Assembly: GCA_021647785.1 (NCBI GenBank)
Contig: JAKIUC010000045.1
Location: forward strand, 1 to 36,465
DNA from: Melioribacteraceae bacterium
GTDB lineage: Bacteria; Bacteroidota; Ignavibacteria; Ignavibacteriales; Melioribacteraceae
Direction: 5' to 3'
Length of the DNA stretch: 36,465 bases
A program made the translations under genes and the position numbers. The stretch's first letter is position 1. Each line of letters starts with the position of its first letter. Below are positions 18,818-33,252 of this stretch, piece by piece. A model generated the notes under the pieces. That model made no database searches. It saw nothing but the letters and a program-made list of their open reading frames with translations, and was not told where the DNA came from.

Positions 18818-18853
18818 TTTTTACGAGACATTCAGTTGAATGTCTCGTAAAAA
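18818..18853 (+). terminator. Terminator after carB
   Basis: Perfect 17-bp inverted repeat (TTTTTACGAGACATTCA with its complement at 18837-18853) and a 2-base loop. The A/T-rich base gives a T-run on either strand, so it can work in both directions. It separates carAB from the sulfur-cluster regulator. Confidence 0.85.
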
Positions 18854-18970: not shown

Positions 18971-19016
18971 TTGACATAATACATTGGCAAGAAAGTTGAT
19001 ACTCTCCAATATCAAC
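18971..19016 (+). promoter_or_regulatory. Candidate promoter/operator before the MerR-type regulator
   Basis: TTGACA at 18971-18976 could be a -35 box. The dyad GTTGATA (18995-19001) / TATCAAC (19010-19016), with an 8-bp spacer, lies 17 bp before the regulator's ATG. Such a dyad just ahead of a MerR-family gene is a plausible autoregulatory operator. No good -10 box at the right distance could be fixed. The stretch 18858-19033 otherwise holds no convincing gene. Confidence 0.4.
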
Positions 19017-19033
19017 AATTATGGTAAAAAGTA

Positions 19034-19468
19034 ATGTTAAGAGATTTGGAAAATCCAAAATATACAATTAGTAATGCTGCAAAATTATTAAATATTTCAG
19101 TTCATACAATGAGAATGTACGAAAGAGAAGGTTTAATTATTCCATTTAAAAAAGAGAGTGGGCAGCGTCTCTATTCCGATAATGATATTGAACGTATTAG
19201 GTGCATCCGAACTTCTATAAATGAAGAAAAATTAAATATTCAAGGAATTAGAAAAATACTGAGTTTAATTCCTTGTTGGACAATTGTTAAGTGTTCAGAG
19301 AGTGATAAAATAAATTGTAAAGCTTATAGTTCATCAGTAAAACCTTGCTGGATGTATAACCATAAAGATAATATTTGCAAAGATAAGAACTGTCGGGAAT
19401 GCGAAGTTTACCATAGTTTAGGTACATGTGAATCTATTAAAAATAAAATTAAAGAACTATTATTTTAA
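19034..19468 (+). CDS. MerR-family regulator with cysteine-rich two-CW-like tail
   Basis: DNA-binding regulator. Residues about 10-75 form the MerR winged helix-turn-helix (YTISNAAKLLNISVHTMRMY, then EREGLI and GQRLYSDNDIERI). The tail has eight cysteines: C81, C87, C95, C105, C115, C120, C123 and C132. The spacing, with CW at 81-82 and again at 105-106, CKAY at 95-98 and CEVY at 123-126, resembles the 'two-CW' metal-binding module. The short linker helix and the tail suggest metal, Fe-S or persulfide sensing rather than a drug pocket. It lies 17 bp upstream of the SQR-like gene, so it probably controls that operon and itself. The ligand is unknown. Confidence 0.85.
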   Translation: MLRDLENPKYTISNAAKLLNISVHTMRMYEREGLIIPFKKESGQRLYSDNDIERIRCIRTSINEEKLNIQGIRKILSLIPCWTIVKCSESDKINCKAYSSSVKPCWMYNHKDNICKDKNCRECEVYHSLGTCESIKNKIKELLF

Positions 19469-19485: not shown

Positions 19486-20715
19486 ATGAAAAAATTATTA
19501 ATTTTAGGTGCTGGTACTGCTGGTACAATGATGTTAAACAAATTTGCAAAAGAACTTGATAGTAATGAGTGGGGCATTACGATAGTTGACCAACACGAAA
19601 CACACTATTACCAACCTGGGTTTCTTTTTATTCCATTTGGAATATATAACAAAAAAGATGTAATTAAACCAAAGCGTGATTTTTTCCCAAGGGGTGTAGA
19701 AGTAATAGTTTCGGGAATTGATAAAATTGAACCGAAAGAAAATAGAGTTCTATTACAAAACAATCAGGTTTTAACTTACGATTATTTGATAGTTGCAACT
19801 GGATCAAAAATAAACCCGAAAGAGACGGAAGGTTTAGCCGGAGAACTATGGCAGAAAAGTATTTTCGATTTTTATACAGTTGAAGGTGCTGTTGCTTTAG
19901 CCGATTTCTTCAAACACTGGGAAGGCGGCAAATTAGTTTTAAATATTACTGAGATGCCAATTAAATGCCCTGTTGCTCCATTGGAATTTGTCTTCTTAGC
20001 AGACTCTTATTTTACTGAACGAGGAATGCGAGATAAGGTAGATATCCATTTTGTTACTCCGCTACCTGGTGCATTTACAAAACCCAAAGCATCATCAATA
20101 TTAGGTGATTTTTTGTCTAAAAAAAATATTAGCCTAACTACAGAGTATAATATTGCAAAGGTAGATAACGAAAATAAAAAAATTGTTTCGTGGGATGAAA
20201 TCGAAATTCCTTTTGATGTTCTAATTACTATCCCAACAAACATGGGCGACGAGATGATTGAAAGAAGTGGAATGGGTGATGAGTTAAACTTTATTCCAAC
20301 TGATAATTATACACTTATGGTAGATGGATATGATAACATTTTTGCAATTGGTGATTGTACAAATCTTCCTAGCTCAAAGGCTGGCTCAGTTGCTCACTTT
20401 CAAGCAGATATTCTTTTCGAAAATTTCCTTGATGTTATTGATGGAAGAGAACCCAGAGCGAAATTTGATGGACATGCAAACTGCTATATTGAAAGTGGTT
20501 TTGGAAAAGGAATTCTTATTGATTTTAATTACGATACAGAACCATTGCCAGGTAAATATCCACTTCCTGGGGTTGGACCTTTTTCATTGCTCGAAGAGAC
20601 AAAAATGAATCATTACGGTAAAATTATGTTCAGATGGATATATTGGAACTTGTTATTGAAAGGGAAAGAACTTCCAATTGAATCAAATATGTCAATGGCT
20701 GGTAAGAGGTTATAG
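19486..20715 (+). CDS. SQR-like FAD/NAD(P)-dependent oxidoreductase
   Basis: Flavoprotein of the disulfide-reductase fold, closest in pattern to sulfide:quinone oxidoreductases, which oxidise sulfide to polysulfide or a persulfide and reduce quinone at the membrane. The FAD Rossmann motif LGAGTAG is at 7-13, YDYLIVATGSKINP at 98-111, and the second FAD motif NIFAIGDCTNLP at 284-295. Cysteines C161 (MPIKCPVAP) and C333 (ANCYIESGFG) sit where SQRs carry their redox-active pair; C291 is also present. The length of 409 aa fits. The context (two-CW MerR, DUF1641, DsrC-like, DsrE-like) supports a sulfur role. A related dehydrogenase activity cannot be excluded. Confidence 0.82.
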   Translation: MKKLLILGAGTAGTMMLNKFAKELDSNEWGITIVDQHETHYYQPGFLFIPFGIYNKKDVIKPKRDFFPRGVEVIVSGIDKIEPKENRVLLQNNQVLTYDYLIVATGSKINPKETEGLAGELWQKSIFDFYTVEGAVALADFFKHWEGGKLVLNITEMPIKCPVAPLEFVFLADSYFTERGMRDKVDIHFVTPLPGAFTKPKASSILGDFLSKKNISLTTEYNIAKVDNENKKIVSWDEIEIPFDVLITIPTNMGDEMIERSGMGDELNFIPTDNYTLMVDGYDNIFAIGDCTNLPSSKAGSVAHFQADILFENFLDVIDGREPRAKFDGHANCYIESGFGKGILIDFNYDTEPLPGKYPLPGVGPFSLLEETKMNHYGKIMFRWIYWNLLLKGKELPIESNMSMAGKRL

Positions 20716-20716
20716 A

Positions 20717-21385
20717 ATGGAAGAGAATAAAACACAAAATCAGATAAATGAAATTAATAGGAAACTTGATATAATTCTTGAAGAGATTGAATTACAGAGA
20801 AAACATCGTAAAGAGATGGAAGACCTAAAAGATGACCTTATGCGAGTAGGAAAAGATGTTTATCAAACTACAGTAGAAGAATTAGAGGAAGTTTCGGAAC
20901 ATGTTAAGACAGGTGATATACTTCACTTAAGTAAAAAACTTATTAGGAATGTAAATAACATTAGTGGTATGTTTGATCAATTAGAAAGTATGAATGATCT
21001 CCTACAAGATGTTGCCCCTATTTCACGTGAAATTATAATTGATTTTATGCAAAAACTTGATGAGTTTGATCGCAAAGGTTATTTCGATTTTATCAGAGAA
21101 ATTAGTAAAGCTATGGATAATGTTGTTGAATCTTTTACAGTAGAAGATGTTAGAGCACTTGGAGATAATGTTGTAACAATTCTTAATACAGTTAAAAACT
21201 TAACACAACCCGATATGCTTCATGCAATAGACAATGCACTTACAGTCTATAAAAAGCTTGATATTGAAGTGGAGGAAAAAATATCCTATTTTACGTTACT
21301 TAAAAGAATGAATACACCAGAAATGAAAAGAGGACTGGCATTTGCAATGCACTTTTTGAAAAGTATGGTAGAGAAACCAGTTTGA
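20717..21385 (+). CDS. DUF1641 protein
   Basis: Mostly helical protein in the DUF1641 family, which often sits beside SQR-like or formate dehydrogenase genes; its function is not established. The start is placed at ATG 20717 (MEENKTQNQINEI), 2 bp after the upstream stop, rather than at an in-frame ATG at 20678 inside the SQR gene; GAGGT lies just upstream. Residues about 1-50 predict a coiled coil (NRKLDIILEEIELQRKHRKE). The C-terminal conserved part includes LLKRMNTPEMKRGLAFAMHF. No signal peptide or membrane segment. At 222 aa it probably works with the flavoprotein, for example as a membrane-docking or assembly partner (inference). Confidence 0.8.
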   Translation: MEENKTQNQINEINRKLDIILEEIELQRKHRKEMEDLKDDLMRVGKDVYQTTVEELEEVSEHVKTGDILHLSKKLIRNVNNISGMFDQLESMNDLLQDVAPISREIIIDFMQKLDEFDRKGYFDFIREISKAMDNVVESFTVEDVRALGDNVVTILNTVKNLTQPDMLHAIDNALTVYKKLDIEVEEKISYFTLLKRMNTPEMKRGLAFAMHFLKSMVEKPV

Positions 21386-21429: not shown

Positions 21430-21747
21430 ATGAGTACAATTGAAATTGGTGGTAAAACACTGGAATTAGATGCTGACGGAAATCTAGCAAATATTTCTGA
21501 TTGGAATGAAGAAATTGCTCGTGAACTTGCTAAAAGTGAGGGAATTGAGGAACTGAATGAAAGCCATTGGCAAGTAATAAACTACATGCGAAAAGTTTTT
21601 GTGGAAGATGGTGGTGCACCATCAATTAGAAAATTAACAAAGGAGAGTGGAGTTAATACAAAAGAATTGTATGCACTATTTCCAAATGGTCCTGCAAAAA
21701 AATCAGCTAAAATTGCTGGTTTACCTAAACCCAAAGGATGTATTTAA
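21430..21747 (+). CDS. DsrC/TusE-family sulfur carrier with single C-terminal Cys
   Basis: Small sulfur-transfer protein of the DsrC/TusE/RspA family. The C terminus AKIAGLPKPKGCI carries the conserved penultimate cysteine C104, which binds persulfide. The second cysteine of true DsrC, 11 residues earlier, is Ala93 here, so the trisulfide chemistry of dissimilatory sulfite reduction is not expected; this is the TusE-like situation. The family blocks DWNEEIARELAKSEGI and ESHWQVINYMRKVF are present, and 105 aa is usual. A good ribosome-binding site (AAAGGAG) precedes the ATG. No tusBCD or dsrAB lies nearby. It probably accepts sulfur within this operon or passes it to the DsrE-like protein. Confidence 0.88.
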   Translation: MSTIEIGGKTLELDADGNLANISDWNEEIARELAKSEGIEELNESHWQVINYMRKVFVEDGGAPSIRKLTKESGVNTKELYALFPNGPAKKSAKIAGLPKPKGCI

Positions 21748-21825: not shown

Positions 21826-22311
21826 ATGGCTGATCCAATTGAAAGAGTATCAATAGTTGTTTCAAAAGGTTCGTTGGAAGGAGTTTATCCAGGACTAATA
21901 ATGGCAAATGGTGCAAGAATGGAGGGAATTGAAGCTACATTATTTTTTACATTTTTTGGTCTCGATGCAATCATCGATAAAAGAATGGATAGTTGTAGCG
22001 TAGCAACAGTAGGAAACTCTGCAATGAGAATACCTGGCGGATTGAAAATGCCCACACTTCTTGGTGCTATACCTGGCATGGAAGCATTTGCCACATTTAT
22101 GATGAAAAAAGAGATGGAAAAAATAGACATCCCACCAGTTCGCGAATTTATAGAAATGATTCACGATGCAGGTTGCGATATTTATGCTTGTAAAGCTACT
22201 GTAGATATGTTTCATTTAAGCAAAGATGATTTCTGCCCACAGATGGATGAAATAATTACGGTTGGTGAGTTTTACGAAAAATCGGCAGGTGCTCAAATTA
22301 TTTTTACTTAA
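21826..22311 (+). CDS. DsrE/DsrF/DrsH-like (DsrE2-type) sulfurtransferase
   Basis: Small protein of the DsrE superfamily, DsrE2 group, which binds or transfers sulfane sulfur on a conserved cysteine. The start MADPIERVSIVVSKGSLEGV is the typical first strand and loop. Candidate active cysteine C122 is in DIYACKATVDMF, with C117 five residues earlier; C57 and C137 are also present. The hydrophobic stretch LFFTFFGLDAII at 39-50 and the Gly/Met-rich segment at 70-95 are usual for DsrE2. The length of 161 aa is normal. A strong ribosome-binding site (AGGAG) precedes the ATG. As the last gene of the cluster it probably exchanges sulfur with the DsrC-like carrier. Confidence 0.87.
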   Translation: MADPIERVSIVVSKGSLEGVYPGLIMANGARMEGIEATLFFTFFGLDAIIDKRMDSCSVATVGNSAMRIPGGLKMPTLLGAIPGMEAFATFMMKKEMEKIDIPPVREFIEMIHDAGCDIYACKATVDMFHLSKDDFCPQMDEIITVGEFYEKSAGAQIIFT

Positions 22312-22478: not shown

Positions 22479-23870
22479 TCACCGAATATTTTTCACTACT
22501 TCAATATCAAATTGTTCCATTCTGTATCTTAGTTTAGAGCGAGAAAGTCCAAGAATTTTTGCGGCTTTTACTTGATTTCCATCAGTGATATTTAAAGTTT
22601 TAAGTATTAAATCTTTTAACACTACCTCCATCTTAATACCAAGAGGAGGAATTTCTAAATTAAACCGCCTGTCGGATGATTGCCCGGAATTTGATTTCTC
22701 AACCAAAAAATTAAGATGATAATCCTTCAATGTATCTTCCTCTAATAAAAGAACAACTCTTTCCATAATATTTCTAAGCTCACGGATATTACCTTTCCAT
22801 TCGTGCATCTTAAGAATTTCAAGAGCTTTCTCATCAATATCTTTAACATTTTTATTGAATTTTTTTGCAAATTCCATTAAGAATGAATATGCTAAATATG
22901 GTAGGTCTTCGCTTCTTTCTTTTAGTGAAGGTACACGTATATTTGCAACATTAATTCTATAAAATAAATCTTCTCTAAAGTTCCCCTTTGCAACCTCTTC
23001 TTCCAAATCTCGGTTTGTAGCAGCTAAAATTCTAACATCAACTTTAATTTCTCTTTCACCACCTACACGGTAGAACTTCCTTTCTTGAAGAACTCTTAAG
23101 AGCTTCACTTGTAAATCGAGCGATAGTTCTCCAATTTCATCGAGAAGAATAGTGCCGCCATCTGCAAGCTCGAACTTACCAAGTTTTGTTTTTTGCGATG
23201 CACCGGTAAATGCACCTTTTTCGTGTCCAAAAAACTCACTCTCTGCTAACTCTTTTGGAATTGCCGAACAATTGATTTGAATAAAAGCCTTCTCTTTTCT
23301 CGGACTTCGCTGATGTATGAAACGAGCAAACATCTCCTTCCCAGTTCCACTTTCGCCCTCAATTAAAATTGTAGTATCCGAACTTGAAGAGAGTTTTTCA
23401 ACGGCATTAACTAACTTCTGAATTTTTCTACCCTTCCCAAAAAACTCTTTCGATAAATAATCATCTTCAAGAAGTTTGTTTAATTTATTTACTTCATCCT
23501 TTAGCTTAATGTTTTTCATTGCCTTTTCAATTACAAGTTGTAATTGTTCAAGGTCAATAGGTTTTAATAGAAAATCTAATGCACCACCTTTAATAGCACT
23601 TACAGCAATATTCACATCGGCATAGCCGGTAATCATTATTACAGGAGCGTCTATCCCTTCATCTTTAATGATTTTTAATAATTCTAATCCGTTGTGCGTT
23701 GTTAAATAGATATCAAGTAAAATTAAATCGGGTTCAAACGTTTTAATTGCATGTATAGTTTTTCCACCATCCATACAAACTTCAACTTCATTATCTAAAC
23801 GAGTAAGAGCTTTCTTTAGAGAAATGCAAACTAAATTATCATCATCTATTACTAGAATTCTCGGTTTCAT
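22479..23870 (-). CDS. NtrC-family sigma-54-dependent response regulator (FlrC/FleR-like)
   Basis: Transcription activator with three domains. The receiver (1-120) has phosphoacceptor Asp53 in LILLDIYL and Lys103. The AAA+ domain (145-370) has Walker A GESGTGKE at 172-179, the sigma-54 contact loop GAFTGA at 219-224 and Walker B ILLDEIGE at 241-248. The C-terminal Fis-type helix-turn-helix ends [19 protein letters not shown]. The length of 463 aa is normal. Its ATG lies inside the kinase gene (29-bp overlap), so the pair is coexpressed. Adjacency to fliS-fliD-flgM suggests it switches on flagellar genes with sigma-54, like FlrC/FleR, but no -24/-12 promoter was recognised in the window. Confidence 0.93.
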
Positions 23871-24585
23871 ATAATTTTCTCATTCTATTTACACTAAATG
23901 TAATTTTAAACTTTGTTCCAACTTCAAGTTTACTTTCAAAATCTATCTCTGCACCTTGTTCATTTATTAACATTTTACAAACGCTAAGCCCTAATCCTGT
24001 TCCGTTCTCTTTGCTTGTATAAAAATCTTCAAAAATCTTTTTTTGATTCTCTTTTGAAATCCCAGATCCATTATCTTCAATAATCCAATGAACTTTCCCT
24101 CCATCTTTGCAAGCTTTATACAAAGTTTTAATTACAATTTTACCACCATTATTTTCTTCGCACGATTCTATTGCATTTGTAATTAAATTAAGAATAACTT
24201 GGAGAAGTTTATTTTCATCAGCATAAACATAAATTAAATTTTCATCTAAATTATGTTTTATTTGCACACCATACTTTGTTGCTTTAACGGCTAATAAATC
24301 AACTGCATTTAAGGTTATTTTATTGAGTGAAATATTTTCACGCCCATGTGTAACAACCCTGGCAAATGAGAGAAGGCTATCAACCATATACTCTATTCTA
24401 TCAGTAGCAGAAAGACTATCGTTTACTGATTCGAGTACATCTTTCGACAAAAGATTTCCTTCCATCTTAATTAAATCGAGATTGAGTTTTATTGCTGAAA
24501 GAGGGTTGCGTATTTCATGGATTAAACTCGCAGTTAGTTTACCCAAAATTCGTAGTTTGTTATTTTGTATATCGCCAGATAGCAT
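23842..24585 (-). CDS. Soluble sensor histidine kinase (FlrB-like)
   Basis: Short kinase of 247 aa with no membrane segment and almost no sensor region. The H-box LIHEIRNPLSAIKLNLDL places phospho-His23. The ATPase domain has N-box ILNLITNAIES, G1 DNGSGI and G2 ENGTGLGLS. It overlaps the downstream response-regulator gene by 29 bp. The ATG at 24585 is the only usable start, since an in-frame stop lies 8 codons upstream. A cytoplasmic kinase lacking a sensor, paired with a sigma-54 activator and next to late flagellar genes, matches FlrB/FleS-type control, where flagellar assembly state is the input (inference). Confidence 0.88.
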   Translation of the reverse strand: MLSGDIQNNKLRILGKLTASLIHEIRNPLSAIKLNLDLIKMEGNLLSKDVLESVNDSLSATDRIEYMVDSLLSFARVVTHGRENISLNKITLNAVDLLAVKATKYGVQIKHNLDENLIYVYADENKLLQVILNLITNAIESCEENNGGKIVIKTLYKACKDGGKVHWIIEDNGSGISKENQKKIFEDFYTSKENGTGLGLSVCKMLINEQGAEIDFESKLEVGTKFKITFSVNRMRKLYETENSSNR

Positions 24586-27893: not shown

Positions 27894-28805
27894 TTAACCT
27901 AATAACTGAAGTACCGCCTGGGGGGCAAAGTTCAACTGAGCTAACATTGATGTAGCTGCCTGTCCACCTATCGAACTTTTAGTAGCATTCAACTGCTCCA
28001 ATGCCATATCTGCATCAAACAATCTAGATACTGATGCTTGTGAGTTTGCAATAGCCGATGTTAAGAAATCATCCTTTGCATCAAGCCTCTGAACAAAGTT
28101 ACCTATTGCACCAAGTGCATCATCAACTTCTGTTTCAAACAACTCTAGATTTGTAAGCAAATCAGAAATATTTGAAGTAGTTAATTCTGCAATACCAATA
28201 TCACTACCACTATCTGTACCAAGAGCATTATTTACAATAGCTGATACACCAGCTACAGCGTTACTTCCATCTGTAGTTAATTCAGTTGTTCCAGAAAGAT
28301 CACCACCACCTGCACTTACTGCATAATTAACAGTTAGTGTATCGGCAGAAGCTGCACCTGTTTGGAATGAGAAACTAGGGGCTGAACCACCTGCTGAAAC
28401 CAAGAGTGAAGTATCATTAAATTTGGTTGTTTCAAAAGCACTCGCTATTTCTTCACCAATTGCTTTTATATCATTTACAATTGCAGATTTATCTGCTGCA
28501 GGATTTGATGCATCGGCTACTTTTGCTTTAATTTGAGTAATCATATCTTTAATAGATATTAACTGACTCTCGGCTGTTGCAAGCATGTCTTTCGCAGAAC
28601 CTACGTTACCTTGTGCAGATTGCATTAGTTTTACTTTTTGGTCTAATGATTTACCTACATTAAAACCAGATGTGTCATCAGCTACCGAATTGATTCTCTT
28701 TTGAGTTGCAAGACGTAACTGAGCTTTTTGTGTTCTTGAGTTCAAACTAGATAGAGCATTATAAGCCTTCAATGCTCCGATGTTAGTGTTAATTTGAAAT
28801 CCCAT
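27894..28805 (-). CDS. fliC: Flagellin, copy 1
   Basis: Filament subunit of 303 aa, the longest of five paralogues here. The N terminus MGFQINTNIGALKAYNALSS and C terminus SMLAQLNFAPQAVLQLLG are the D0/D1 helices that pack the filament core; both termini are almost identical to copies 2 and 3. The central part (about 140-225: FSFQTGAASADTLTVNYAVS onward, then Asp/Gly/Ser/Thr-rich sequence) is unlike the others. D2/D3 domains are absent. No cysteine. The leader shares the GGA hairpin with copies 2 and 3. No sigma-28 box was seen just upstream, so it is probably read from the promoter ahead of copy 3 or from an unrecognised one; the strong terminator at 27748-27778 lies downstream. Confidence 0.96.
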   Translation of the reverse strand: MGFQINTNIGALKAYNALSSLNSRTQKAQLRLATQKRINSVADDTSGFNVGKSLDQKVKLMQSAQGNVGSAKDMLATAESQLISIKDMITQIKAKVADASNPAADKSAIVNDIKAIGEEIASAFETTKFNDTSLLVSAGGSAPSFSFQTGAASADTLTVNYAVSAGGGDLSGTTELTTDGSNAVAGVSAIVNNALGTDSGSDIGIAELTTSNISDLLTNLELFETEVDDALGAIGNFVQRLDAKDDFLTSAIANSQASVSRLFDADMALEQLNATKSSIGGQAATSMLAQLNFAPQAVLQLLG

Positions 28806-28810
28806 GATAT

Positions 28811-28851
28811 ACCTCCATGTATGTTGTTATTAAATATGGCTTCCTTGCCAT
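28811..28851 (-). promoter_or_regulatory. Flagellin 1 leader: GGA hairpin plus GGA at the ribosome-binding site
   Basis: On the minus strand ATGGC-AAGGAA-GCCAT forms a 5-bp stem with GGA in a 6-base loop (28851-28836). ATACATGGAGGT (28822-28811) holds the Shine-Dalgarno and a second GGA, matching the CsrA consensus RUACARGGAUGU at 10 of 12 positions. The layout resembles CsrA-controlled leaders such as B. subtilis hag. Confidence 0.55.
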
Positions 28852-28877
28852 TAAAATTATTATACTCTTTTTCCATT

Positions 28878-28907
28878 GCCCGCATCCAGATATATTTGAA
28901 TGCGGAC
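28878..28907 (-). other. Intergenic hairpin between flagellins 2 and 1
   Basis: In minus-strand RNA, GUCCGCAUUCA pairs with UGGAUGCGGGC (11 pairs, two GU) around an 8-base AU loop. No U-tract follows in that direction, so it may be a processing or partial termination site rather than a full terminator. Confidence 0.5.
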
Positions 28908-28934
28908 ATTGAAATTATTTTTTTATTCAGTCAA

Positions 28935-29801
28935 CTATCCAAGTAACTGAAGTATCGCCTGGGGGGCGAAGTTCAACTGAGCTAACATTGATGTAGCTGC
29001 CTGGCTACCTATTGAACTTTTAGTGGCATTCAACTGCTCCAAAGCCATATCTGCATCAAATAATCTAGAAACAGATGCTTGCGAGTTTGCAATAGCCGAT
29101 GTTAAGAAATCATCTTTTGCATCAAGCCTTTGCACGTAGTTACCTATTGAGCCAAGAGCATTATCAACTGCTGTTTCAAAATCATCAATATCAAGTGCTG
29201 CAATTGTTGTTGAAGTTACAGCAATAGCTGCACTTAGATCAGTTGCAACATCCGCTTGAACATTGGTTGCACTTCCGCCAGTTACACTACCCGAACCACC
29301 AATATATTCTCCATAATTAACAGCAAGTGTATCTCCTGCTGCTGCACCAGTTTGGAATACGAATCCGGTTGCACCTGTTCCACCACTACCAGACATTAAC
29401 AGATTTGTATCGTTAAATTTGGTAGTAGCAATTGCACTATCAATTTCGAGTGCTATCGATTTGATGTCATTTGCTATTGCAGCTTTATCTGCTGCTGGGT
29501 TTGATGCATCAGCTTTTTTAGCTCTAATTTGAGTAAGCATATCTTTTATAGATATTAACTGACTCTCTGCGGTTGCAAGCATATCCTTTGCAGAACCTAC
29601 ATTGCCTTGTGCTGCTTGCATTAGTTTTACTTTTTGGTCTAATGATTTACCTACATTAAAACCAGATGTGTCATCAGCTACTGAATTGATTCTCTTTTGA
29701 GTTGCAAGACGTAACTGAGCTTTTTGTGTTCTTGAGTTCAAACTAGATAGAGCATTATAAGCTTTTAATGCTCCGATGTTAGTGTTAATTTGAAATCCCA
29801 T
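28935..29801 (-). CDS. fliC: Flagellin, copy 2 (mosaic)
   Basis: Filament subunit of 288 aa. The N-terminal 80 residues and the last 75 follow copies 1 and 3 (NALSSLNSRTQKAQ; MALEQLNATKSS; NFAPQAILQLLG). The middle (about 135-215: SGSGGTGATGFVFQTGAA, GGSGSVTGGSATNVQADVAT, LDIDDFETAVDNALGSIGN) closely follows copies 4 and 5. The gene therefore looks like a recombinant of the two subgroups. IGSQAATS replaces IGGQAATS near the C terminus. Leader and ribosome-binding site are nearly identical to those of copy 1. It lies 95 bp after copy 3. Confidence 0.96.
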   Translation of the reverse strand: MGFQINTNIGALKAYNALSSLNSRTQKAQLRLATQKRINSVADDTSGFNVGKSLDQKVKLMQAAQGNVGSAKDMLATAESQLISIKDMLTQIRAKKADASNPAADKAAIANDIKSIALEIDSAIATTKFNDTNLLMSGSGGTGATGFVFQTGAAAGDTLAVNYGEYIGGSGSVTGGSATNVQADVATDLSAAIAVTSTTIAALDIDDFETAVDNALGSIGNYVQRLDAKDDFLTSAIANSQASVSRLFDADMALEQLNATKSSIGSQAATSMLAQLNFAPQAILQLLG

Positions 29802-29806
29802 GATAT

Positions 29807-29848
29807 ACCTCCATGTATGTTGTTATAAATTATGGCTTCCGTGCCATA
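29807..29848 (-). promoter_or_regulatory. Flagellin 2 leader: GGA hairpin plus GGA at the ribosome-binding site
   Basis: TATGGC-ACGGAA-GCCATA forms a 6-bp stem with GGA in the loop (29848-29831). The same ATACATGGAGGT box as in flagellin 1 lies at 29818-29807, five bases before the ATG. The loop base change (AAGGAA to ACGGAA) leaves the GGA intact. Confidence 0.55.
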
Positions 29849-29896
29849 TTGTTTTTTGCTTTATTGCCAACTATTATTAGCAACAAAATTATTTTT

Positions 29897-30763
29897 CTAT
29901 CCAAGTAATTGCAATACCGCTTGTGGGGCAAAATTTAACTGCGCTAACATTGATGTTGCTGCTTGTCCACCTATCGAAGCTTTGGTTGCATTTAATTGTT
30001 CTAATGCCATATCTGCATCAAATAATCTAGAAACTGATGCTTGAGAATTTGCAATTGCTGATGTTAAAAAATCATCCTTTGCATCTAATCTTTGTACTGA
30101 ATTACCTATTTTCCCTAGTGCGTTATCTACAGCAGTTTCTAAGTCACCAAAGTCTAAATCAGCTATTGTAGTACCTGTCCCGGATACTGCTACTAGAGCT
30201 TCTAATTCTGTTGAGATTGCTGTTTTAAGAGTTGCACCTGTACTATTAACTTGATCTGTTCCAGCAAGCTCGCTTCTAAAATCTACCGATAATGTATCTG
30301 TAGAACCCGCACCTGTTTGGAAACTAAATGCAGTACTAGTTTCACTAGCTCCGGTCATTAATAATTGTGTGTCGTTGAATTTTGTGGTTGCAAAACCATT
30401 GATTATTTCATTGCCAATAGCTTGGATATCTTTAGCAATAGCACCTTTATCTGCTGCTGGGTTTGAAGCATCTGCTTGTTTTGCTTTTATTTGAGTAATC
30501 ATATCTTTAATGCTAATCAACTGACTTTCTGCTGTAGCCAACATATCCTTTGCCGACCCAACATTACCCTGAGCTGCTTGCATTAATTTTACTTTTTGGT
30601 CTAATGATTTTCCTACATTAAAACCAGATGTGTCATCAGCTACACTATTAATTCTCTTTTGAGTTGCAAGACGTAACTGAGCTTTTTGTGTTCTCGAGTT
30701 TAAACTAGATAGAGCGTTATATGCTTTTAACGCACCAATATTAGTGTTAATTTGAAAACCCAT
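29897..30763 (-). CDS. fliC: Flagellin, copy 3
   Basis: Filament subunit of 288 aa with the same D0/D1 termini as copies 1 and 2 and a distinct centre (about 135-215: TGASETSTAFSFQTGAGSTD, then FRSELAGTDQVNSTGATLKT). Codon usage differs visibly from copies 1 and 2 in the shared ends, so this copy is older or has escaped recent conversion. It is the first gene after the sigma-28-type promoter at 30841-30867, with a leader of about 70 bases that contains the GGA hairpin. It probably heads a run with copies 2 and 1. Confidence 0.96.
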   Translation of the reverse strand: MGFQINTNIGALKAYNALSSLNSRTQKAQLRLATQKRINSVADDTSGFNVGKSLDQKVKLMQAAQGNVGSAKDMLATAESQLISIKDMITQIKAKQADASNPAADKGAIAKDIQAIGNEIINGFATTKFNDTQLLMTGASETSTAFSFQTGAGSTDTLSVDFRSELAGTDQVNSTGATLKTAISTELEALVAVSGTGTTIADLDFGDLETAVDNALGKIGNSVQRLDAKDDFLTSAIANSQASVSRLFDADMALEQLNATKASIGGQAATSMLAQLNFAPQAVLQLLG

Positions 30764-30768
30764 TTTCT

Positions 30769-30809
30769 ACCTCCATGTATTATGTTTTAATTAACAGGCA
30801 TCCTTGCCT
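30769..30809 (-). promoter_or_regulatory. Flagellin 3 leader: GGA hairpin plus GGA at the ribosome-binding site
   Basis: AGGC-AAGGAT-GCCT forms the stem (30809-30796), with CAAGGATG matching the core of the CsrA consensus. ATACATGGAGGT lies at 30780-30769. The stem sequence differs from copies 1 and 2 (AGGC/GCCT against ATGGC/GCCAT) while pairing and the GGA loop are kept, which is covariation in favour of a real RNA structure. Confidence 0.6.
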
Positions 30810-30840
30810 ATTTACTTTATCGATTTTCTTTTCAACAATA

Positions 30841-30867
30841 CTATCGGAGAGATAAAAGAATTGTTTA
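30841..30867 (-). promoter_or_regulatory. Sigma-28 (FliA) promoter of flagellin 3
   Basis: On the minus strand: TAAA (30867-30864), exactly 15 bases, then TCCGATAG (30848-30841), matching TAAA-N15-GCCGATAA at 6 of 8 in the -10 box with invariant CGATA. The expected transcript start is near 30833, about 70 bases before the flagellin 3 ATG. Confidence 0.82.
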
Positions 30868-30992
30868 GTTTTTTTGATAAAATAATTTAGAGGGAGGAAA
30901 TATACAATGGGGTTCAAGTGATTTTTGGGTGGATAAAATAAATACTTTTGTAGTGAACACTTCGATACAAATTACATTTAAAAACAAAATTC

Positions 30993-31367
30993 AATCCCTC
31001 TGGGATTGGGAAATATTGTAATCTTTTTTTCTACAAAAATTTAACCCCTCTGGGATTATGTGGCACTGTTACTCATCAATTCTTAATTATAATAATCTTT
31101 TATTTTGCGGTATAGCAGTTATGTACCTGTCCCGTTTACGGGAAAGTCTCTAAGTTTCAAAGTAAATTGTGTTTTTAATAACTCCGTTAGGAGTTACAAT
31201 TTAGTAGAGAACAAAAAAAAAAAAAAATGAATAAGAATCCCAGAGGGATTCCATTTTTAATAACAAATTGGAATCAAAAAATAATTCAATCCTCTGTCCT
31301 GTAAGGATGCCCTCGGCATAAGAGTCTCACCGACCTCTGGGATTATGTGGCACTGTTACTCATCAAT
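30993..31367. repeat. Cluster of palindromes and a 34-bp direct repeat between flagellins 3 and 4
   Basis: The 700-bp gap 30764-31473 has no gene. It holds AATCCCTCTGGGATT at 30993-31007 and its reverse complement at 31236-31250; a perfect 34-bp direct repeat at 31047-31080 and 31334-31367 (begins CCTCTGGGATTATG, ends ACTCATCAAT); the palindromes TCCCG-TTTA-CGGGA at 31130-31143 and TAACTCC-GTTA-GGAGTTA at 31179-31196; and a run of 15 A at 31213-31227. This looks like nested insertion of short mobile or REP-like repeats. Confidence 0.75.
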
Positions 31368-31436
31368 CCTTAAATTACAAATGTATATTTTATCAACCTA
31401 AAAATCATTTGAACCAAAAAGTAAACCAAACACAAA

Positions 31437-31464
31437 GTAGAGACACGCTGCGGCGTGTCTCTAC
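31437..31464 (-). terminator. Hairpin after flagellin 4; GTAGAGAC-type palindrome
   Basis: Perfect 12-bp arms GTAGAGACACGC/GCGTGTCTCTAC with a 4-base loop, 9 bp after the flagellin 4 stop. On the minus strand it is followed by TTTGTGTTTGG, so it can plausibly end the flagellin 5-4 transcript. The outer sequence shares GTAGRGA...TCYCTAC with 21765-21800 and may be a dispersed repeat reused as terminator. Confidence 0.7.
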
Positions 31465-31473
31465 AAAATTATA

Positions 31474-32343
31474 TTATGAATTTAATAATTGCAGAACTTG
31501 CTGCGGAGATACATTTAACTGAGCAAGCATAGCTGTTGCTGCCTGTCCGCCAATAGATGCTTTAGTTGCATTCAATTGCTCCATTGCCATATCTGCATCA
31601 AATAGTCGCGAAACCGATGCTTGAGAATTAGCAATTGCCGATGTTAAAAAATCATCCTTTGCATCTAACCGCTGCACCGAATTACCAATACTGCCAAGGG
31701 CATTATCAATAGCTGTTTCAAAATCATCAATATCAAGTGATGAAATTGTTGAGGCAGCTACAGCTATGGCTGCACCGAGATCAGTTGCAACATCTGCATG
31801 AACATTAGTTGCACTTCCACCACTTACACTACCTGCACCGCCAACATATTGACCATAATCAACAGTCAATGTATCTGTAGAAGCTGCTCCAGTTTGGAAT
31901 ACAAACCCGCTTCCACCAGTTCCACTTGCTCCAGACATTAAAAGATTTGTATCATTAAACTTGGTTGATGCTATTGCACTATCAATTTCAAGAGCAATAG
32001 ATTTTATATCGTTAGCTATCGCAGCTTTATCCGCCGCCGGATTTGATGCATCAGCAACTTTTGCTCTTATTTGAGTAAGCATATCCTTAATTGAAATAAG
32101 CTGACTCTCTGCTGTTGCCAGCATATCCTTTGCAGAACCTACATTTCCTTTAGCAGCCTGCATTAGCTGAACTTTTTGATCTAACGATTTTCCTACATTA
32201 AATCCGGAAGTATCATCAGCAACACTGTTAATCCTTTTCTGTGTTGCGAGTCGTAATTGAGCCTTTTGCGTTTTCGCATTTAAATCTGCCAAAGCATTAT
32301 ATGCTTTTAAAGCTCCGATGTTTGTGTTAATTTGAAATCCCAT
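31474..32343 (-). CDS. fliC: Flagellin, copy 4
   Basis: Filament subunit of 289 aa. The N terminus varies from the others (NALADLNAKTQKAQ), and the C terminus ends NVSPQQVLQLLNS rather than QLLG. MAMEQLNATKASIGG is shared with copy 5 only. The central block (SGASGTGGSGFVFQTGAAST, then GQYVGGAGSVSGGSATNVHA) is nearly the same as in copy 5, so these two are recent duplicates. The leader lacks the GGA hairpin of copies 1-3 and has a plain GAGGAAA site. It lies 42 bp after copy 5 and is presumably cotranscribed with it. Confidence 0.96.
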   Translation of the reverse strand: MGFQINTNIGALKAYNALADLNAKTQKAQLRLATQKRINSVADDTSGFNVGKSLDQKVQLMQAAKGNVGSAKDMLATAESQLISIKDMLTQIRAKVADASNPAADKAAIANDIKSIALEIDSAIASTKFNDTNLLMSGASGTGGSGFVFQTGAASTDTLTVDYGQYVGGAGSVSGGSATNVHADVATDLGAAIAVAASTISSLDIDDFETAIDNALGSIGNSVQRLDAKDDFLTSAIANSQASVSRLFDADMAMEQLNATKASIGGQAATAMLAQLNVSPQQVLQLLNS

Positions 32344-32385
32344 TTCATTTCCTCATATATTTAGAACTCAGTCTTAATTTCTACT

Positions 32386-33252
32386 TTAACCTAATAGTTG
32401 TAATATCTGCTGTGGTCCCATGTTTAATTGAGCTAACATTGCTGTAGCTGCCTGTCCGCCAATAGAGGCTTTAGTTGCATTCAATTGCTCCATTGCCATA
32501 TCAGCATCAAATAGTCGCGAAACCGATGCTTGAGAATTAGCAATTGCCGATGTTAAGAAATCATCCTTTGCATCTAACCGCTGCACCGAATTACCAATAC
32601 TGCCAAGGGCATTATCAATTGCTGTTTCAAAGTCGTCAATATCAAGTGATGAAATTGTAGAAGCAGTTACAGCTATAGCCGCACCTAAATCGGTTGCAAC
32701 ATCTGCATGAACATTAGTTGCGTTTCCTCCTGTTACACTCCCTGCACCGCCAGTATACTGACCATAATCAACAGTTAATGTATCTGTAGAAGCTGCTCCA
32801 GTTTGGAATACAAACCCGCTTGCACCAGTTCCACTTGCTCCGGACATTAAAAGATCTGTATCATTAAACTTGGTTGATGCTATTGCACTATCAATTTCAA
32901 GAGCAATTGATTTAATATCGTTAGCAATAGCTGATTTATCAGCCGCCGGATTTGAGGCATCGGCAACTTTTGCTCTAATTTTAGTTAACATATCTTTAAT
33001 TGATATTAACTGACTCTCTGCTGTTGCAAGCATATCTTTAGCAGAACCCACATTCCCTTTTGCAGCTTGCATTAATTTCACTTTTTGATCTAACGATTTT
33101 CCCACATTAAACCCTGATGTATCATCTGCAACACTATTAATCCTTTTCTGTGTGGCTAAACGTAGCTGTGCTTTTTGGGAGCGTGAATTTAAGCTTGCTA
33201 AAGAATTGTATGCTTTTAAAGCTCCAATGTTTGTGTTAATTTGAAAACCCAT
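32386..33252 (-). CDS. fliC: Flagellin, copy 5
   Basis: Filament subunit of 288 aa with N terminus NSLASLNSRSQKAQ and C terminus NMGPQQILQLLG; otherwise near-identical in protein to copy 4. It starts only 15 bp after the end of the glycosyltransferase-TPR gene, with a strong site GGAGGAAA, and no promoter could be seen in between. It is therefore probably read together with that gene, which points to a joint function such as glycosylation of this flagellin. Confidence 0.96.
   Translation of the reverse strand: MGFQINTNIGALKAYNSLASLNSRSQKAQLRLATQKRINSVADDTSGFNVGKSLDQKVKLMQAAKGNVGSAKDMLATAESQLISIKDMLTKIRAKVADASNPAADKSAIANDIKSIALEIDSAIASTKFNDTDLLMSGASGTGASGFVFQTGAASTDTLTVDYGQYTGGAGSVTGGNATNVHADVATDLGAAIAVTASTISSLDIDDFETAIDNALGSIGNSVQRLDAKDDFLTSAIANSQASVSRLFDADMAMEQLNATKASIGGQAATAMLAQLNMGPQQILQLLG

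Follow-up and report, generated by a model that had tools for sequence, protein, structure and literature searches.

A conserved family of MerR-type regulators with a predicted two-CW-like cysteine domain, often heading dissimilatory sulfur operons

The stretch of DNA analysed here, referred to as the window, comprises 36,465 nucleotides of contig JAKIUC010000045.1 from a Melioribacteraceae bacterium. On its forward strand, at positions 19034 to 19468, lies a gene of 435 bases that encodes a regulator of 144 amino acids, in the frame reported by the first-pass annotation, and that is the first gene of a putative operon. The stop codon of this gene is separated by 17 bases from the start of a gene for a type III sulfide:quinone reductase-like flavoprotein (SQR; 19486-20715; NF049943, 657.8 bits against a cut-off of 525), the product of which matches solved sulfide:quinone oxidoreductases with E-values of 1.7e-48 and weaker. 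Its cysteines are found at positions 161, 291 and 333, of which we take 161 and 333 to be candidate redox cysteines by analogy. Further along the same strand follow genes for a DUF1641 protein (20717-21385; PF07849, E 2.8e-8), a DsrC/TusE-type sulfur relay protein (21430-21747; PF04358, E 3.6e-36; TIGR03342, 106 bits, cut-off 53.5) and a DsrE2-like protein (21826-22311; PF13686, E 2.1e-31; NF047629, 102.5 bits, below the cut-off of 210). The SQR-like operon that had been proposed to lie directly downstream of the regulator is thus indeed present. A terminator-like hairpin with a 16-pair stem and a T-rich tail (18818-18853, forward strand) is located between this operon and upstream genes that appear carAB-like by eye; 1 such hairpin was found in the stretch against 1.7 expected in shuffled sequences, and only its position speaks for it. 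Elsewhere in the window, the reverse strand carries a run of five similar flagellin-like genes (27894-33252, by eye), as well as an NtrC-type response regulator and a histidine kinase (22479-24585, by eye) that are convergent with the sulfur operon, the NtrC-type protein being a possible sigma54 activator.

The N-terminal part of the regulator (residues 1-78; 19034-19267, forward strand) is a MerR-type helix-turn-helix (HTH) DNA-binding part. Residues 10-77 match Pfam MerR_1 (PF13411) with an E-value of 8.5e-18 and 64.7 bits (cut-off 21.6), in agreement with the normal MerR DNA-binding domain described earlier. The 21 NCBIfam models that matched the regulator all started in the HTH and all stayed below their own cut-offs. 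Foremost among them was HspR, the heat-shock repressor of the MerR superfamily (NF047375; 66.3 bits, cut-off 105), with a match that ended at residue 78. HspR acts on an inverted repeat, and its operator and neighbours differ from those of the present family. The equivalog models for MerR, CueR, ZntR and CadR-PbrR were not reached (40.4, 35.2, 37.3 and 30.8 bits against 150.85, 147.4, 167.95 and 151.45, respectively), nor was that for SoxR (TIGR01950; 22.2 bits, cut-off 116.9). An AlphaFold model of the whole regulator as a monomer had a pLDDT of 91.7 and a pTM of 0.83, and its Foldseek/VIA matches included GlnR, SoxR and CueR folds. The closest solved folds for the HTH were GlnR (7tea_C; residues 2-78, Z 12.9, rmsd 1.7 over 76 residues) and, in second place, the TnrA-type fold 4r24_B (Z 12.3), both from the MerR superfamily. 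Where classical MerR metal and drug sensors have a long dimerisation helix behind the HTH, the monomer model shows short helices at residues 81-84 and 89-93. GlnR and TnrA answer to glutamine synthetase and, to our knowledge, have no comparable cysteine domain.

The remainder of the protein (residues 79-144; 19268-19465, forward strand) is a cysteine-rich tail. As had been noted from the sequence, the 65 residues from position 80 onwards contain cysteines at 81, 87, 95, 105, 115, 120, 123 and 132, with CW at 81-82 and 105-106; a ninth cysteine, C57, is located in the HTH part. If cysteine is assumed to make up 1% of residues, at least 8 cysteines in 65 residues have a probability of about 3e-7. 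A Pfam scan of the 144-residue protein gave no match for the tail. The order CW-x4-C ... C ... CW ... C ... CxxC is shared with the two-CW model NF045718, from which the tail differs in lacking the conserved GT after the second CW and in having the extra C132. Three tails were scanned against this model with hmmscan (cut-off 35): those of the window and of locus L026 had no match, and that of L012 reached 13.1 bits (E 0.097, positions 2-77 of 80). The case for homology comes from comparing a profile of 26 regulator tails by hhalign with one of 19 two-CW domains (including L172, L173 and L175): the probability was 98 and the E-value 2.3e-13, and the 53 aligned columns bring CW, C, C, CW and CxxC into register. 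On this profile-profile comparison, the label 'two-CW-like' of the first-pass annotation is well chosen, and the tail is by homology predicted to be a distant sub-type of the two-CW domain, below the curated cut-off. The two-CW domains were gathered from the phylum of a genome (G338) reached via locus L079, where the domain was found in 34 of the 79 genomes searched (E 0.001; 31 above the cut-off). No match to the two-CW family was obtained in the window's genome or in 14 control genomes of the same search. Searching solved structures by sequence with either alignment returned none, and the tail modelled alone (pLDDT 78, pTM 0.52) had no VIA row and a single Foldseek match with an E-value of 9.8, an outcome that points neither to a new fold nor to a known one. 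We found neither the phrase 'two-CW domain' nor a function for this domain in the open-access literature.

At an E-value of 1e-12 or better, the regulator family is represented in 29 of 296 genomes sampled from the phylum, one of which is the window's own. Wider relatives were taken as the best 80 matches of a contig scan with the window's protein. Among these, tail-bearing loci stem from Ignavibacteria, Melioribacteraceae, Bacteroidetes, Kapaibacterium, Calditrichota, KSB1, Neomarinimicrobiota/Marinimicrobia and a few otherwise titled sources; one scan of viral contigs with the same protein gave no relative. Two loci cut off within the HTH (L080 and L098) were dropped, and the alignment leaves out L013, L025, L032, L045, L048 and L068 besides repeats and truncated rows. 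The 68 tail-bearing relatives that were aligned belong mostly to Ignavibacteria, Calditrichota/KSB1 and Neomarinimicrobiota. All 68 keep C81, C95, C105, C120 and C123, together with W106, V125 and Y126, while C87 is kept in 67, C57 in 62, C115 in 58 and C132 in 52, figures that describe the tail-bearing family rather than MerR proteins in general because the relatives had been selected by similarity and by presence of the tail. C132 is thus the least fixed cysteine of the tail, and 10 of the 16 sequences without it are from Marinimicrobia. This degree of conservation rules out a chance origin of the cysteines and answers the question, raised at the outset, of whether orthologues retain them. 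The family member at L048:2514-2948, whose tail is interrupted by an in-frame stop and whose flanks lack all of the sulfur genes tested, is apparently decaying.

To describe the genomic context, the proteins encoded by the window operon and by partner operons were compared by tblastn with 76 tail-bearing loci and with 34 control loci that match the HTH only (L002-L004, L081 and L083-L113 minus L098) and that lack the two-CW-like pattern in all frames. Flanks extended to at most 1.5 kb for L002-L033 and up to 8 kb for other loci. Counts refer to 74 loci, namely the 76 minus the repeats L044, L052 and L054 (of L013, L027 and L030) plus the window; the near-identical pairs L067/L068, L023/L051 and L028/L055 were kept, and two further matches from the 296 genomes (G082:C62 and G259:C2) lie outside the counts. 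The gene directly downstream encodes a PsrA-type protein in 25 loci, SQR in 10 and an octaheme cytochrome of the tetrathionate reductase family in 9, which amounts to 44 loci. In 2 further loci, a near-identical pair, the regulator lies directly behind an SQR-DsrE2 operon, so that 46 of 74 loci adjoin SQR, PsrA-type (Psr/Phs) or octaheme genes. The others have downstream a multihaem cytochrome whose function was not recognised (8 loci, Marinimicrobia), genes for an SBF-family (ACR3-like) transporter and an ArsC-like protein, which we take to be ACR3 and ArsC (2 loci, L028 and L055), a protein without Pfam match followed by an outer-membrane-like gene (2 loci), or no recognised partner (16 loci, 3 of which end within 200 bases). 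None of the 34 control loci had matches to SQR, DUF1641, DsrC, DsrE2 or octaheme proteins; 2 had a molybdopterin protein of 21-30% identity at a distance of about 5-7 kb.

The partner assignments were examined for representative proteins. For PsrA of L037, the solved thiosulfate reductase 2vpw, presumably from Thermus, gave a match of 741 bits, but the score against PhsA was below the cut-off (517 vs 694 bits). The octaheme protein exceeds the cut-off of TIGR04315 (tetrathionate reductase family; 575.9 bits vs 375) and matches 1sp3. Further along the partner operons, Sulf_transp (PF04143) proteins are encoded, one of them fused to a rhodanese domain. Sulfur genes are the most frequent neighbours of the family, in contrast to the refuting case, named at the outset, of conserved neighbours unrelated to sulfur. 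The original suggestion that the regulator controls sulfide oxidation holds with regard to its sulfur partners, but these point to sulfur redox metabolism in general, with reductases being more frequent than SQR. An SQR above the NF049943 cut-off is present in 73 of the 296 genomes of the phylum and the regulator in 29, so that most such SQRs occur without it. By parsimony on a quick tree of 68 regulators, the partner class changed 12 times when the class 'other' was disregarded and 20 times when it was included (shuffled mean 37.8); 33 of the 65 inner branches of this tree are weak, and the starred branches by themselves require 4 changes for SQR, 3 for PSR, 2 for MHC and 1 for OTR. Partners thus appear to have been swapped, mostly for another sulfur operon. 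Altogether, the MerR-type regulators that carry a two-CW-like domain form a conserved family, so far without a name, whose members often head dissimilatory sulfur operons. No description of it was found in the open-access literature, most subscription papers lying beyond the search.

Several individual loci deserve mention. L060 (1695-6600) encodes the regulator, SQR, DUF1641, DsrC, DsrE2 and then ACR3-like and ArsC-like proteins in one run. In L053 (5085-9600), two family regulators are located close together, one beside psrABC and Sulf_transp genes and the second ahead of genes for a protein without Pfam or NCBIfam match and for what we presume to be an OmpP1-like protein; the pair recurs in L034. 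In the Marinimicrobia loci L061, L066, L069, L071, L073, L075, L078 and L082, the regulator precedes the multihaem cytochrome; the one cytochrome that was scanned matched Cytochrome_C7 only. This protein is a candidate sulfur enzyme.

The two-CW domain is also found on a different DNA-binding part: in the G338 phylum it is often combined with an XRE-type HTH. By eye, this combination is present in all of 11 loci (L206-L216), and among 4 such proteins scanned, 3 exceeded the HTH_3 cut-off, two of them narrowly, and 1 did not. In 7 of the 11 loci, genes for sulfur assimilation, mobilisation or relay lie within about 5 kb. The neighbours confirmed by Pfam are Cys_Met_Meta_PP and MetW at L213, NifU_N, ThiS, ThiF and a class-V aminotransferase at L207, NifU_N at L212 and DsrE at L209. 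Those at L214 and L215 are MetX-MetW-MetY-like by resemblance only, and L210 combines MetX-MetW-like neighbours, again by resemblance, with SQR and DUF1641 detected by tblastn. Within the same distance, no recognised sulfur genes were seen near L206, L208, L211 and L216. The count was made without a control set and such genes are common, which makes the link between XRE-two-CW proteins and sulfur genes a lead that is perhaps worth following.

Upstream of the regulator gene, a TGGCA-N6-TTG element is located at 18985-18998 on the forward strand. It has the -24/-12 spacing of a sigma54-type promoter with A instead of C at -12. Its TTG overlaps a palindrome at 18995-19016, read directly from the sequence as GTTGATACTCTCCAATATCAAC, with arms GTTGATA/TATCAAC around 8 bases and 8 of 11 pairs. 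The element is family-wide: TGGCA-N6-[TC]TG precedes 42 of 76 regulator genes (repeats included), against a mean of 0.3 and a maximum of 3 in 200 resamplings, it is common to SQR-, PsrA- and octaheme-linked regulators, and the exact pattern is missing from 34 of the 76 upstream regions. In most Ignavibacteria the element leads straight into the palindrome, which at its best reads GTTGATATTTATAAATATCAAC. In 38 sites aligned in the same register, the mean number of pairs was 6.8 of 11 compared with 3.5 in shuffles; only 0-4 pairs were counted in L024, L025, L028, L030, L055, L059, L060 and L063-L065 despite the presence of the TGGCA element. Both arms are altered together in L053 (TTGACAAT/ATTGTCAA), and related TGTATT/AATACA repeats were observed by eye in Calditrichota, KSB1 and Marinimicrobia. 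When TGGCA-N6-TTGATA was searched in 12 genomes with zero mismatches, a setting that weaker sites may escape, all 11 sites with at least 7 of 11 pairs preceded family regulators, and the three other sites in the window's genome had 1, 3 and 4 pairs. The restriction of strong sites to these positions fits a local switch. The TGGCA/palindrome element itself is thus well supported, and the palindrome is likely to be an operator.

The sigma54 reading of the TGGCA element is a weak one. The sigma54 consensus is GG-N10-GC within TGGCA/TTGC, and C at -12 occurs in 5 of the 38 aligned sites. RpoN is encoded in 69 of 73 genomes and, being nearly universal, does not discriminate. Both TGGCA-N6-TTGC and TGGCA-N6-TTGA exceeded a reversed control in most of the 12 genomes, this control being unbalanced for codon use, and the canonical pattern was found 0 times in the window with 0.94 expected. 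If the sigma54 reading were right, transcription would start at about 19011 and the palindrome would extend from about -16 to +6, which would be a repressor's place.

We see an even chance that the regulator is a local, autoregulated repressor of its sulfur operon that senses sulfane sulfur through the two-CW cysteines. A dimer bound to the promoter-overlapping palindrome (18995-19016) would keep its own gene and those for SQR, DUF1641, DsrC and DsrE2 at a low level of expression. The trigger would be sulfur in an oxidised, zero-valent ('sulfane') form, polysulfide or persulfide for example, with which the two-CW cysteines may react directly or in response to which they may give up a bound metal. 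The dimer would then leave the DNA or change its shape, and the operon would be expressed. Cysteine-based control of sulfide or sulfane-sulfur operons is, as far as the accessible parts of the sources go, also exerted by SqrR/BigR (ArsR), CstR (CsoR) and FisR (NtrC). The mechanisms of these regulators operate through DNA-binding folds other than the MerR-type fold considered here, and in the open-access literature, as far as its text was available, we found no MerR-type sulfane-sulfur sensor.

An alternative on the side of the signal would be a redox or oxygen sensor in which the two-CW domain holds an Fe-S cluster or zinc, with the sulfur operons as targets. A small domain with six near-invariant cysteines offers a set of ligands that is typical of metal or cluster sites, and L207 and L212, two of the XRE-two-CW relatives, have NifU_N-type genes as neighbours, but the partners of the regulators are enzymes acting on sulfur substrates. 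We regard this reading as unlikely, and it would overlap with sulfane-sulfur sensing if sulfur attacks the metal site. Concerning the output only, the signal possibly being the same, the regulator might be a classical MerR activator that stays bound and, on binding its ligand, twists a poorly spaced sigma70-type promoter. At such promoters the operator is located inside an over-long -35/-10 spacer. The MerR-family HTH and a TTGATA-18-TATGGT pair at 18996-19025 that overlaps the palindrome would be in line with this. However, promoter-like pairs are common in the region (26 vs 17.8 +/- 4.1 in shuffles), and the 38 aligned sites, which were chosen for TGGCA, show TGGCA and the palindrome clearly but no conspicuous -10 hexamer. 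In the monomer model, moreover, the HTH is not followed by a long helix. Activation of this kind is improbable in our view, and we favour repression.

The only expression data that we found for the family are from Melioribacter roseus. Its genome holds two members, one (L005) ahead of SQR and one (L033) ahead of PsrA; the latter is almost certainly MROS_1773, the regulator preceding psrABC. The psr/phsA gene preceded by MROS_1773 was hardly transcribed during aerobic, microaerobic or fermentative growth, and its transcripts increased when arsenate was respired (adjusted p 0.03; PMC5492636), so that the Psr-linked operon is inducible from near zero. Arsenite or an oxidised sulfur species could be its inducer, as could the mode of growth. 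The fermentation culture, at -130 mV, contained 1 mM sulfide (PMC5492636) and psr/phsA was near-silent in it, so that plain sulfide is unlikely to be the signal for at least this Psr-linked member.

The arsenate response brings up a third possibility, namely a sensor of arsenite or thioarsenate whose cysteines bind As(III) and whose Psr/Phs-type partners serve arsenate respiration. Psr/phsA transcripts did rise in cells grown with arsenate (adjusted p 0.03; PMC5492636), L033 precedes PsrA, and L028 and L055 lie ahead of genes for an SBF-family transporter and an ArsC-like protein. However, arsenic-type genes were found in 3 of 74 loci (L028, L055 and, behind its SQR operon, L060), compared with 46 loci that adjoin SQR, PsrA or octaheme genes, and the neighbouring DsrC, DsrE2, Sulf_transp and rhodanese proteins handle sulfur. 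Moreover, any sensor with vicinal thiols might be induced gratuitously by As(III), and the M. roseus conditions that were reported differed in growth mode as well. In view of the 46 sulfur-linked and 3 arsenic-type loci, sulfane sulfur is our preferred signal, with arsenite as a main rival that we judge to be quite unlikely.

In print, MROS_1773 appears as a MerR-like or MerR family regulator, and so does the regulator that precedes psrABC in Ca. Thermonerobacter. In the parts of PMC5492636, PMC3534657 and PMC6338057 that were accessible, family members are named plain MerR-type regulators, one of these papers remarks that MerR-type proteins can answer metals or stress, and no mention was found of the cysteine domain of either protein. 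The finding is thus wider than first noted, in that a family extends across several lineages of which single members had previously appeared, in these accessible parts, only as plain MerR regulators.

A broader view, which we put forward tentatively and with more doubt than confidence, is that the two-CW domain may be a portable sensor of sulfur status, attached to MerR-type HTHs that switch dissimilatory sulfur operons and to XRE-type HTHs encoded beside genes for sulfur assimilation and mobilisation (MetX-MetW-MetY, NifS-IscU and ThiS-ThiF). The MerR form would act at a palindrome over a sigma54-like promoter, a mode for which we know of no precedent among MerR proteins. It is equally tentative that the MerR-type fusions belong to Ignavibacteria and neighbouring phyla and the XRE-type fusions to another group, with at least two unrelated DNA-binding folds. 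With a fixed set of cysteines, a candidate operator and a cultured host, M. roseus, that has two copies of the regulator, the switching of sulfur enzymes in uncultured sulfur-cycling Ignavibacteria, Calditrichota, KSB1 and Marinimicrobia becomes directly testable, and the family could give the two-CW domain its first function.
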